DNA of 64,000 bases, taken from NCBI RefSeq assembly GCF_000243335.1, contig NZ_JH597773.1:2323728-2387727 (forward strand). The letters run 5' to 3'. The notes beneath the pieces were generated by a model. The model searched no databases. It was not told the origin of the DNA and was given only the letters and a program-made list of their open reading frames with translations. Source of the DNA: Leptonema illini DSM 21528 (GTDB lineage Bacteria; Spirochaetota; Leptospiria; Leptospirales; Leptonemataceae). The position numbers were made by a program, and so were the translations under genes. This document shows, piece after piece, positions 30,915 through 52,712 of this stretch; position 1 is the stretch's first letter, and every line of letters starts with the position of its first letter.

Positions 30915-31682
30915 TCAGTAATAAGGCACTTTATCCCTTTTAATGGCTGTCATCACATCGGATTTTTGTGCATTGGGTGCTGATACCAGGCGAAAGAGCT
31001 CCTGAGAAGGAGCATCGACAATATCATTCACCGCTTCAATTTCTTCCTGAGATAAAGGACCAAACTTCTCTTCAAGAAGAGAAACAAACAGATTACGCCG
31101 CTGTTCAATGATAAGGATAAATGAATTGATACGCCGAATATCACTTTCCCATCGTTGACGCATATAGCGCGCATAATCCTGTCGGCCTCCCGGCCACAGC
31201 TGAACGCTTTCGAGCTGCAAATCCCCTGTGTCAAACCGTCCGACGACCCAATTCTGACCGGATTGGCGACCATCTATGCGATGCCGTATAGTAAAGTCCT
31301 GCACAACCCCTTTGTACAAAAATACATAGTACAGGATGCTTTCCATATTTACGTAACTGCGGAACTCACCTCGCTCCTCATAACGATCGTACGTAAACCC
31401 AATGATGCGGTCCACGAGAAAGACGCGGTCATGAATACGCTTCTTAAAAGGGACAAGATATGTAAACCTGAGATTCGGGCCTTTCGGATAGACACTCAGG
31501 ATTTCTTCTTCTGTGGTTACTCCTTTCACTGGCATTCTGTCCTCACGAAACTCGAAAGACCACCCAAACGGTGCTTTCAGAATGTCACCACGGAAGCGCT
31601 GATCAAACGTCCAATTGTCGCTCAAAAAGATCGAACATCCACTGAAGAAAATTACCCCAAAAACACTTATTCCAAGACGCAT
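30915..31682 (-). CDS. Lipoprotein of unknown function
   Basis: 255 residues with an N-terminal hydrophobic stretch and lipobox FFSGC (Cys16). The mature part is beta-rich (FTYLVPFKKRIHDRVFLVDRIIGFTYDRY, YYVFLYKGVVQDFTIRHRID) and ends in helices (IRRINSFILIIEQRRNLFVSLLEEKFGPLSQEEIEAVNDIV). Four PEST-like or domain signatures were sought and none seen. AT content is higher than in neighbouring housekeeping genes, common for surface lipoproteins. Transcribed alone, divergent from the acetolactate synthase leader region. Confidence 0.7.
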   Translation of the reverse strand: MRLGISVFGVIFFSGCSIFLSDNWTFDQRFRGDILKAPFGWSFEFREDRMPVKGVTTEEEILSVYPKGPNLRFTYLVPFKKRIHDRVFLVDRIIGFTYDRYEERGEFRSYVNMESILYYVFLYKGVVQDFTIRHRIDGRQSGQNWVVGRFDTGDLQLESVQLWPGGRQDYARYMRQRWESDIRRINSFILIIEQRRNLFVSLLEEKFGPLSQEEIEAVNDIVDAPSQELFRLVSAPNAQKSDVMTAIKRDKVPYY

Positions 31683-31944: not shown

Positions 31945-32031
31945 ATGCGTTCTCTCGTCGTAAACGTAATGCTTCTTGTCTCTGTGGTGGTGCTCCAGCG
32001 CAGACATAGATGCTTTACGCCCGAGAGATAA
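31945..32031 (+). CDS. Leader peptide for acetolactate synthase attenuation
   Basis: 28-codon ORF (ATG 31945, TAA 32029) starting MRSLVVNVMLLVSVVVL. Eleven of residues 4-17 are Leu or Val, then an unremarkable basic tail (QRRHRCFTPER). A partial Shine-Dalgarno GGA lies seven bases before the ATG; an internal ATG at 31969 would give 20 codons. Density of Leu and Val codons immediately before alternative RNA hairpins and an ilv gene is the hallmark of enterobacterial ilv/leu leader peptides. Ile codons are absent, so Leu and Val would be the sensed amino acids. I infer ribosome stalling here when Leu- or Val-tRNA is uncharged. Confidence 0.8.
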   Translation: MRSLVVNVMLLVSVVVLQRRHRCFTPER

Positions 32032-32077
32032 AGCCAGCCGGTTACCGGACTCAAAAAGGCCCTCGTCAGCGTAAAGC
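32012..32077 (+). promoter_or_regulatory. Antiterminator pairing of the ilv attenuator
   Basis: GCTTTACGC (32012-32020, inside the leader ORF) is perfectly complementary to GCGTAAAGC (32069-32077). This helix encloses the left arm of the terminator while its right partner sits in the terminator loop, so it and the terminator helix cannot form together. A ribosome at the leader stop codon would cover 32012-32020 and permit termination; one stalled in the Leu/Val block (31969-31995) would leave it free. A smaller competing pair is GCTTTA with TAAAGC (32029-32034). Confidence 0.7.
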
Positions 32078-32098
32078 AGGCGGGGGCCTTTTTGTTTT
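32053..32098 (+). terminator. Attenuator terminator upstream of acetolactate synthase
   Basis: AAAAAGGCCC (32053-32062) pairs with GGGCCTTTTT (32084-32093), followed by GTTTTT. It lies 40 bp upstream of the synthase ATG and downstream of the leader stop, which is the right place for regulated premature termination. Confidence 0.88.
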
Positions 32099-32137
32099 TC
32101 GGGCCGGCCAGGCGAATAAAAAGCAAAGGAGCAGACT

Positions 32138-49904: not shown

Positions 49905-52712
49905 ATGAAAGCTCTGACCTGCGCCGAATTACGTAAACTCTGGATCGAATTCTTCGAGTCGAAAAAGCATCTTCAACTGCCCTCCGCAAGCCTGTTGCCG
50001 GCGGGCGATCCGACTTTGCTTTTTACGTCGGCGGGTATGGTTCCATTTAAGGCATATTTCGAAGGCGCAGAGACTCCTCCAAGCCCGCGCATCGCCACGA
50101 TTCAGAAATGCCTGCGCACCACGGACCTCGAAGTGGTGGGAAAAACGGCACGGCACTGCACCTTTTTTGAGATGCTCGGCAACTTCAGCTTTGGCGACTA
50201 CTTCAAAGAAGAGGCCATCGAATGGGCGTGGGAGTTCTCGGTCGACTGGCTGAAGCTCGACCCGAAAAAGATTCATATTACCGTTTACGAAGACGACGAC
50301 GAGGCCATTCAAATCTGGAATAAGAAGGCCGGCGTTCCGCTGGAGCGCATCACCCGACTCGGCAAAGATACGAACTGGTGGGGACCGGCCGGCGATTCCG
50401 GTCCGTGCGGCCCCTGTTCTGAGCTCTATCTCGATCGCGGCGCCCACATCTGCAAAGGGCCGACGGGCTGCGGCGATCCCGATACGTGTAAGCCCGGCTC
50501 GGACTGTGACCGCTACCTTGAATACTGGAATCTTGTCTTCAATCAGTTTAACCAGGATACGCGAGGACAGCTGCATCCGCTGCCGCGAACAGGCATCGAT
50601 ACGGGCGCCGGTCTCGAACGCATCGTCGCGCTTCTCGGTAACACCGATACCGTTTACGAAACCGACGAGCTGGTGCGCATCCGCACGAAGGTGCAGGAGC
50701 TTGTGAAAGAATCGACGGGCAAAATGCCCGAGATCAACGATACGACGCTGGCCGCCTTTCGCGTACTCACCGATCATGCGCGCTCGTCGACGTTCGCCCT
50801 CTCTGACGGGATTCTGCCCGATAACACCGGCCGCGGTTACGTCGTTCGCCGCATCATCCGGCGTGCGCTTCTTTTCGCACATCATCTGGGCGTGAACGAG
50901 CCTATCCTGCATCGCCTGCATCCCGAGGTCGTCTCGATTTACGGTTCTTTTTATCCGGAGCTTGTCGCCGAACAGAAGAAGGTTCATGACATCCTGCTCT
51001 CTGAAGAACAGCGCTTTCTCACGACGCTTGAAACGGGCGTTCGTAAATGGGATGAATACCTTGCCGAAGCGAAGGCGGCGAAGGCGAAGGTCTTCCCCGG
51101 CAAACAGGCCTTCACGCTCTATGACACGTTCGGATTCCCGCTTGAGATGACGATTGAGTTAGCCGAACGCAACGGCATGACGGTCGACCTGAAAGAATTC
51201 GAGCGACTGATGGAAGAGCAGCGCGAAAAGGCCCGCACGGGAGCGAACTGGAAGGACTTCAAGCTGCCGGCCGACTTTCCGATCAGCGACGAAACGCGCA
51301 CCGAGTTTGTCGGTTATGATACGCTTTCGGATGAAGGCGCCGTCATCGGCATGATCATCGGCGATCATACGACGTCACAGATGAAGGCCGGCGACGAAGG
51401 CATGATCGCGACATCTCGCAGTCCGTTTTATCCCGAAGGCGGCGGCCAGCAGGGCGATACGGGATTTCTTGTAGCTAAAGGCGGACGCTTTCGCGTCGAA
51501 GATACGCGTAAAAAAGGCGAGCTCATCTTTCATATCGGCCGTCTCGAAGAAGGGGCTCTGAAAACGGGCGATCGCATAGAACTCAAGGTCGATACGGATC
51601 GTCGTACGCTGCTCATCGGCCATCACAGCGCCACACATCTTCTGAACAGCGGATTGCGATCCGTTCTGGGCACGCACATCTTGCAAACCGGATCGCTCGT
51701 ATCGCCCGACTATCTGCGCTTTGACTTCTCGCATCCGAAACGCATGGAGCCTGACGAGATCGAACAGGTCGAGCGTTCGGTAATCAAAGCCATCATGGCA
51801 AAGGCAAAGGTCGAGGCGAAGATCCTTCCTATCGACGAAGCGAAGAAAACGGGCGCGATCGCCACGTTCGGCGAGAAATACGGCGAGCAGGTGCGCGTGA
51901 TCACGATGGGAGAGCGACAGGGCGAGAACGAGCCCTACTCCGTCGAGTTCTGCGGCGGATGCCACGTGAAAAACACGGGCGACATCGCCCTCTTTCATAT
52001 TCTGCGTGAATCCAGCCCCGGTGCCGGTAACCGTCGCATTGAGGCCGTCGCCGGCAAACGCGTCACGGCCTACTTCGATGAGCAGTTCTCTGAGCTTCGC
52101 GCCGAGCAGATGCGCCTGCTTGACGAGATCGCCACTCATAAGGTCGATCTGCAGGCGGAATCAAAAGATCTGAAAGCCCTGGCGTTACCCGACGTGAAGG
52201 CCATCGAGTCGTCGCTGGAAAAAGATCCCGAGCAGAGCATTGTCTTTGAAAAACGTATTCGCGATGCTCGCGAGGCTCTGAAGTCGATCGAGAAGCGTAT
52301 GCGAAAGGCACTCGCAAAAGGACCCGCCGACGGAGCAGAACTTGCGGAGTCCCTCCTTGCTTCGGCGAAATCGACGGGCGCCTTCAAGGTCGTCGTCGCA
52401 CGACCGGATTCTCTGGACGGCCAGGCATTGAAGGCCCTTGCCGACGTCTTACGAGAACGCGAGTCGAAGCTCATTCTTCTTGCCGGCTCGGCTACCGAGA
52501 AAGGCCCCGTCCTTGTTTACAGCTGCACGGCCGAAGCCGTAAAAGTCGGGCTTGACTGTTCTGACCTGATACGGCAGACTTCTGCTCATATCGGCGGCAA
52601 AGGCGGCGGAAAGAAAGACATGGCACAGGCCGGCGGCACGCTCGTCGAAGGGATCGAGAAGGCCCTTGCCGAGGCCACAGCGCTTGTCGAGGCCCGACTG
52701 GCGGGAAAATAA
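49905..52712 (+). CDS. alaS: Alanyl-tRNA synthetase
   Basis: 935-residue class II synthetase. Aminoacylation domain: LLFTSAGMVPFKAYF, the motif 2 region CLRTTDLEVVGKTARHCTFFEMLGNFSFGDYF, GPAGDSGPCGPCSELYLDRG and GRGYVVRRIIRRALLFAHHLG. A Zn-Cys insert (CKGPTGCGDPDTCKPGSDC) precedes motif 3. The editing domain has the GHHSATHLL (HxxxH) and FCGGCHVKNTGDI (CxxxH) metal site that clears Ser/Gly mischarges. Coiled-coil and C-Ala domain (residues 700-935) end with GGKGGGKKDMAQAGG. An AGG site eight bases upstream supports the ATG at 49905. Confidence 0.97.
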   Translation: MKALTCAELRKLWIEFFESKKHLQLPSASLLPAGDPTLLFTSAGMVPFKAYFEGAETPPSPRIATIQKCLRTTDLEVVGKTARHCTFFEMLGNFSFGDYFKEEAIEWAWEFSVDWLKLDPKKIHITVYEDDDEAIQIWNKKAGVPLERITRLGKDTNWWGPAGDSGPCGPCSELYLDRGAHICKGPTGCGDPDTCKPGSDCDRYLEYWNLVFNQFNQDTRGQLHPLPRTGIDTGAGLERIVALLGNTDTVYETDELVRIRTKVQELVKESTGKMPEINDTTLAAFRVLTDHARSSTFALSDGILPDNTGRGYVVRRIIRRALLFAHHLGVNEPILHRLHPEVVSIYGSFYPELVAEQKKVHDILLSEEQRFLTTLETGVRKWDEYLAEAKAAKAKVFPGKQAFTLYDTFGFPLEMTIELAERNGMTVDLKEFERLMEEQREKARTGANWKDFKLPADFPISDETRTEFVGYDTLSDEGAVIGMIIGDHTTSQMKAGDEGMIATSRSPFYPEGGGQQGDTGFLVAKGGRFRVEDTRKKGELIFHIGRLEEGALKTGDRIELKVDTDRRTLLIGHHSATHLLNSGLRSVLGTHILQTGSLVSPDYLRFDFSHPKRMEPDEIEQVERSVIKAIMAKAKVEAKILPIDEAKKTGAIATFGEKYGEQVRVITMGERQGENEPYSVEFCGGCHVKNTGDIALFHILRESSPGAGNRRIEAVAGKRVTAYFDEQFSELRAEQMRLLDEIATHKVDLQAESKDLKALALPDVKAIESSLEKDPEQSIVFEKRIRDAREALKSIEKRMRKALAKGPADGAELAESLLASAKSTGAFKVVVARPDSLDGQALKALADVLRERESKLILLAGSATEKGPVLVYSCTAEAVKVGLDCSDLIRQTSAHIGGKGGGKKDMAQAGGTLVEGIEKALAEATALVEARLAGK

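Follow-up and report, generated by a model that had tools for sequence, protein, structure and literature searches.

The region upstream of the ilvB-type gene

The window, by which we mean the whole 64,000-nucleotide stretch of Leptonema illini DSM 21528 that was analysed, contains a gene for an ilvB-type acetolactate synthase (ALS) large subunit, preceded by a short leader ORF and a hairpin with a U-tract (Table 1). The first-pass annotation of this DNA described the ORF as having 28 codons and 11 Leu/Val among residues 4-17, and a base-by-base check agrees: these residues comprise 7 Val, 4 Leu and no Ile. Among the 759 short ORFs of the window (12-50 codons, both strands), the leader alone reaches a Leu/Val/Ile content of at least 9 in 14 residues (its own count being 11), and we regard it as no chance frame. 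Its ribosome-binding match is a weak GGA, and no sigma-70-like promoter was found near it. A 20-nt spacer separates its stop codon from the terminator stem, and a further 39 nt lie between the terminator and the start of ilvB. Because the gene upstream of the leader (30915-31682) is on the opposite strand and points away, what lies here is the 5' leader of ilvB, not the 3' end of some other transcript.

Table 1. Positions of the leader, the pairing segments and the ilvB-type gene in the window
Feature	Position	Strand	Basis or remark
Leader ORF, 28 codons, MRSLVVNVMLLVSVVVLQRRHRCFTPER followed by stop	31945..32031	+	Val/Leu codons at residues 4-17 predicted to be regulatory; Val-run leaders in the same place in ilvB-clade relatives
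Segment 1, TCTCTCG	31951..31957	+	Predicted by folding to pair with CGAGAGA (32022-32028) when the leader is free of ribosomes (protector helix)
Segment 2, TGCTTTACGC (32011-32020) and CGAG (32022-32025)	32011..32028	+	Lies in the final leader codons and forms the antiterminator 5' strand; register kept, with covariation, in relatives
Intrinsic terminator	32052..32099	+	16-bp stem 32052-32094, U-tract 32089-32099 (TTTTTGTTTTT); covariation in relatives
Segment 3, CTCG (32062-32065) and GCGTAAAGCA (32069-32078)	32062..32078	+	5' arm and loop of the terminator; 3' strand of the antiterminator
Shine-Dalgarno-like AAGGAG of ilvB	32126..32131	+	Sequence; outside the terminator hairpin
ilvB-type ALS large subunit, 594 aa	32138..33922	+	TIGR00118, 653.8 bits (cut-off 538)

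The best model for the encoded ALS is PRK08155, at 699.6 bits, which is below the equivalog cut-off of that model (870). In a tree of 69 proteins, it groups with E. coli IlvB (isozyme I; SH-aLRT 99) in a clade of 41 rows that leaves out both IlvG and the housekeeping ALS. Enterobacterial IlvB was placed among the spirochaete rows of this tree, with low internal support. Because of that low support, and because the AU test does not reject grouping all spirochaete rows in one clade (p 0.384), we claim no direction of transfer, and a transfer from spirochaetes to enterobacteria is unsupported. The same genome encodes a second ALS (G000:C1:2495601-2497250), of a kind present in all near relatives. 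No ilvN follows the window ilvB, the next gene being an mdh-like ORF on the minus strand; in six relatives (L010, L064, L065, L067, L068 and L071) ilvN does follow ilvB, as in E. coli, and its absence here is a feature of the operon that lies outside the attenuator proper. The window ALS also carries, at about codons 172-215, a Ser/Pro-rich insert of some 40 residues that is absent from most members of the clade.

Alternative pairings between leader and terminator

The terminator folds at -30.9 kcal/mol (z -7.15), and none of 200 shuffled sequences was equally stable. A perfect terminator had been annotated at 32053-32098; the terminator itself stands, but those coordinates mix stem and U-tract, the stem being 32052-32094. 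Perfect complementarity within 31945-32098 is longest in the terminator stem (11 bp), followed by TGCTTTACGC/GCGTAAAGCA (10 bp, 32011-32020 with 32069-32078). The latter is the helix between leader and terminator loop that the first reading had proposed as excluding the terminator: it is present, it is one base pair longer than was thought, and computation shows that it and the terminator are mutually exclusive. The protector helix, of 7 bp, forms a third pairing.

Which of these structures is predicted depends on how much of the RNA is available. When the start of the leader is masked, as under a ribosome held up at the Leu/Val codons, and the RNA extends only to the terminator loop (31990-32082), the minimum free energy structure is the antiterminator, 32011-32020 with 32069-32078 plus CGAG/CTCG; when the RNA is masked beyond the leader stop (32044-32100), the terminator alone forms; and in the unmasked RNA the helix between segments 1 and 2 forms together with the terminator. 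For the stalled RNA at full length, the terminator remains the thermodynamically favored fold, and antitermination in the window would therefore have to be kinetic. Antitermination is kinetic in other attenuators too.

For the window as a single locus, the duplex between leader and terminator, evaluated with a uniform loop cut, did not differ significantly from shuffles (-14.9 vs -12.9, p 0.22), and we therefore relied on a permutation test across loci. Leader tails paired with their own terminators at a mean of -16.8 kcal/mol as against -12.8 kcal/mol for permuted partners (0 of 20,000 permutations); for this test the window loop was extended manually to the complete 5 nt plus 2, and the window's top rank was obtained with that loop. 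As controls, segments displaced upstream by 30-90 nt, or drawn from beyond the terminator, showed no such preference, so that base composition does not explain it.

Alignment of the leader codons and both helices with those of relatives, a comparison that the first-pass annotation had proposed, revealed conserved Val runs as well as compensatory changes in the antiterminator and in the terminator. In a typical relative, the last leader codons and stop, CGGTTTACACCGTAGGG (ending ...YRFTP), lie opposite CCCTGCCGGTGTAAACCG in the terminator; the window has its pairing in the same position but in other letters, TGCTTTACGCCCGAG opposite CTCGTCAGCGTAAAGCA. In an 18-sequence alignment, both sides have changed in 7 of the 14 pairs that make up the antiterminator and in 7 of the 11 that make up the terminator; a one-base misalignment of the window row in the loop lowers the count of double changes. 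The covariation score of the antiterminator is 0.268, as against 0.197 in shuffled alignments (0 of 500) and at most 0.124 in slid ones, and that of the terminator (0.377) is likewise above its shuffled and slid controls.

A covariance model built from 17 relatives with the window left out (R2) found 31997-32097 as its best match in the 64 kb, at 24.3 bits and a rough E-value of 7e-4. Applied to 40 other loci, R2 matched several further members of the clade, and no housekeeping ALS or IlvG locus among them was matched at E up to 0.1. With a model that includes the window (R1), strong matches across 247 spirochaete genomes lay almost all before ilvB. The window element was also the sole significant match of R1 in its own genome, a match that is not independent because R1 contains this element. 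No Rfam family matched the leader-terminator region of the window or any of ten examples of the element, not even the E. coli copy; a family model is now provided.

Distribution of Val-rich leaders among ALS genes

We scanned the 350 nt upstream of each ALS gene for ORFs with at least 7 Leu/Val/Ile in 10 residues, a scan that dinucleotide-matched random sequence passes at 4.6%. Leaders precede 34 of 38 non-treponemal IlvB-clade genes vs 12 of 102 other ALS genes. In spirochaetes alone the figures are 21 of 24 vs 3 of 54, for which the Fisher p of 6e-13 ignores shared ancestry and thus overstates the independence of the genes. IlvG-group genes have ilvL-type leaders of their own (14 of 16). Four more members of the window's family (L276-L279) have the leader as well, and the eight genomes of a neighbouring family have housekeeping-type ALS genes alone, with no Val leader where their upstream regions were read. 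Most genes in the treponemal branch of the ilvB clade are without a detected leader (11 of 35 have one). At one treponemal locus (L045) an ilvB with no detected leader directly follows another gene, which suggests that the attenuator was lost when ilvB joined an operon.

Per 14 residues, the leaders of relatives average 6.7 Val, 2.4 Leu and 0.5 Ile. Because the Val runs are the part conserved across relatives, valine is the likelier main signal. Seven close relatives (L012, L013, L016 and L276-L279) have the Val leader and the hairpin but no U-tract; in these, control may be exerted through Rho or translation, or the terminator may have decayed.

The element occurs upstream of ilvB in numerous spirochaete families and in beta- and gammaproteobacteria; Bacteroidota and Fibrobacterota each contribute one genome (L156, an isolate, and L135, a metagenome-assembled genome, respectively). 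Tandem pairs of attenuators precede a single ilvB in a spirochaete (G081:C55:50132-50229 and 50336-50425) and in Breznakibacter (L156, 2698-2784 and 2841-2942). Similar arrangements were also seen before other genes: a Val leader, MSLVRAHRQLSISIAIPAVVVAVCALPGFAPTGLG, with the same terminator precedes an apparent PLP aminotransferase, with no ilvB (L231, G187:C45:18528-18636); another, MTVLSVVVSVLYNNGLRLLP, precedes with its terminator a divergent ALS-like gene of 34% identity to the window ALS (L230, G104:C22:52906-53002); and the same antiterminator/terminator pattern, with a leader that has no Val run (MKLRRTTIIHLKDAGKNTGVIFVWIGGIFAP), precedes an apparent DUF362-type gene (L221, G158:C59:2724-2821).

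Proposed attenuation and its relation to known systems

We consider it very probable that the element is an ivbL-type ribosome-mediated transcription attenuator of the ilvB-type gene. We infer that the leader is translated, that ribosomes can stall within it and that transcription terminates in vivo, as follows. With ample charged Val-tRNA and Leu-tRNA, the ribosome would reach the stop codon and cover segment 2, allowing the terminator to form and RNA polymerase to stop before ilvB. When valine (probably first) or leucine runs short, the ribosome would stall in codons 4-17 and leave segment 2 free to pair with segment 3, so that the terminator would not form and ilvB would be transcribed. If the leader is not translated, segment 1 would pair with segment 2, giving termination by default. 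Attenuation by a translated Leu/Val leader, as the first-pass annotation had it, finds strong comparative support: the leader is tied to one gene clade, the antiterminator keeps its register, both helices show compensatory changes, and the element is detected by a model from which it was left out.

Four other explanations bear on the same features. Control that depends on the leader might act through Rho, RNA decay or translation of ilvB and not through the intrinsic terminator, and the relatives that have leader and hairpin but lack a U-tract indicate that another output may exist in the clade. However, the window's own terminator is complete with its U-tract, and the Shine-Dalgarno sequence of ilvB is outside the hairpin, making such a route improbable here. 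A normal terminator also consists of a strong hairpin and a U-tract, and the one here could be constitutive, ending stray upstream transcription next to a frame that is Leu/Val-rich by chance. This we regard as very improbable: the upstream gene points away, leaving no plus-strand transcript to end, and the leader, the terminator and their mutual pairing are all conserved with the gene clade. Although ilvB can elsewhere be under ppGpp riboswitches (PMC10272879) and amino-acid genes of Firmicutes under T-boxes (PMC2965389), we give very little credence to a metabolite riboswitch, T-box or ppGpp aptamer that controls the terminator and makes the ORF incidental, since no such Rfam family reached its gathering score in the window, none was credible at E up to 5, and what relatives conserve is the run of Val codons together with the pairing of the leader tail. 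Finally, that the hydrophobic product of the ORF acts as a small membrane peptide in its own right is scarcely credible, because relatives conserve the Val runs and not general hydrophobicity, and the C-terminal codons covary as RNA with the terminator loop, a pairing that a functional peptide does not need.

For ribosome-mediated attenuation of ilvB, the first reading took enteric ilvL as its comparator. The ilvL-ilvGMEDA system does resemble the window in placing a branched-chain amino acid (BCAA) leader before an acetolactate synthase, but its leader contains Ile (e.g., VVISVVVIII), its gene belongs to the IlvG clade, and it is unmatched by model R2. The closest system is instead ivbL-ilvBN of E. 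coli and other enterobacteria; in E. coli, its Val and Leu leader ends at UAG and reporter expression falls when valine or leucine is fed (PMC11187965). As in the window, the ivbL leader stands before ilvB, its tail pairs with the 5' arm and loop of the terminator, and the ALS proteins fall in one clade. None of the ivbL copies compared here has an Ile codon. The absence of Ile codons from the window leader thus holds, but it seemed odd because the comparison was with ilvL, and against ivbL-ilvBN it is to be expected. The window differs from ivbL-ilvBN in its stop codon, which is TAA and sits a few codons beyond where UAG-GG usually falls, in having 7 Val per 14 leader residues where ivbL has 9, in lacking ilvN, and in the letters of the pairing. 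By gene clade and element model, the window element and E. coli ivbL belong to the same family, and they would share the same working principle.

The first-pass annotation was aware of no such attenuator in Leptospirales, which is outdated. The Leptospira ilvB motif (WRC-14-1) first appeared in PMC8632094 and was re-read by Narunsky et al. in 2023 as a BCAA-rich uORF consistent with attenuation (PMC10272879), so that for Leptospira the proposal of a uORF attenuator at ilvB predates this analysis. The motif, of which seven Leptospira sequences are known and which is likened to the window by description alone, shares with it a spirochaete host, the ilvB gene, a BCAA-rich uORF, at least three consecutive Val codons and proposed attenuation. 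In Corynebacterium, the ilvB-II motif, or ilvBNC attenuator, likewise places a BCAA-rich uORF, a terminator and an antiterminator upstream of ilvB (PMC10272879), but it belongs to another lineage and was compared by description only.

What is new is a homologous leader-ilvB(-ilvN) cassette in Spirochaetota, Pseudomonadota, Bacteroidota and Fibrobacterota. On balance, and with sampling that was centred on spirochaetes, we favor the reading that leader, antiterminator and terminator form one homologous element, inherited or transferred with ilvB(-ilvN) in four phyla or more; most of the diversity sampled would then lie in Spirochaetota, and E. coli ivbL would be one branch. Coding-leader attenuators have been described mostly in Proteobacteria and Actinobacteria; in 2010 the authors of one study knew of none outside these groups, and the sensing parts of attenuators have been described as rapidly evolving (PMC2965389). 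An ivbL-like element that accompanies one ilvB clade in several phyla suggests that certain attenuators can be tracked by homology, being either of sufficient age or sufficiently mobile together with their genes, and it directly predicts control by valine and leucine in spirochaetes.

Among the other BCAA genes of the L. illini genome, neither ilvD nor two HMGL-like genes have a convincing leader. Upstream of a leuA-like gene (G000:C1:3139276) there is a 39-codon Leu-rich ORF, MKGSTSAFTIESAKSLALSLRSALLVLSLLLILPLLLGL (L205, 1173-1292), whose end forms a hairpin, CGGGCTC TGA GCCCG, some 100 nt ahead of the gene, with no U-tract terminator; it is possibly a leucine leader of another type.
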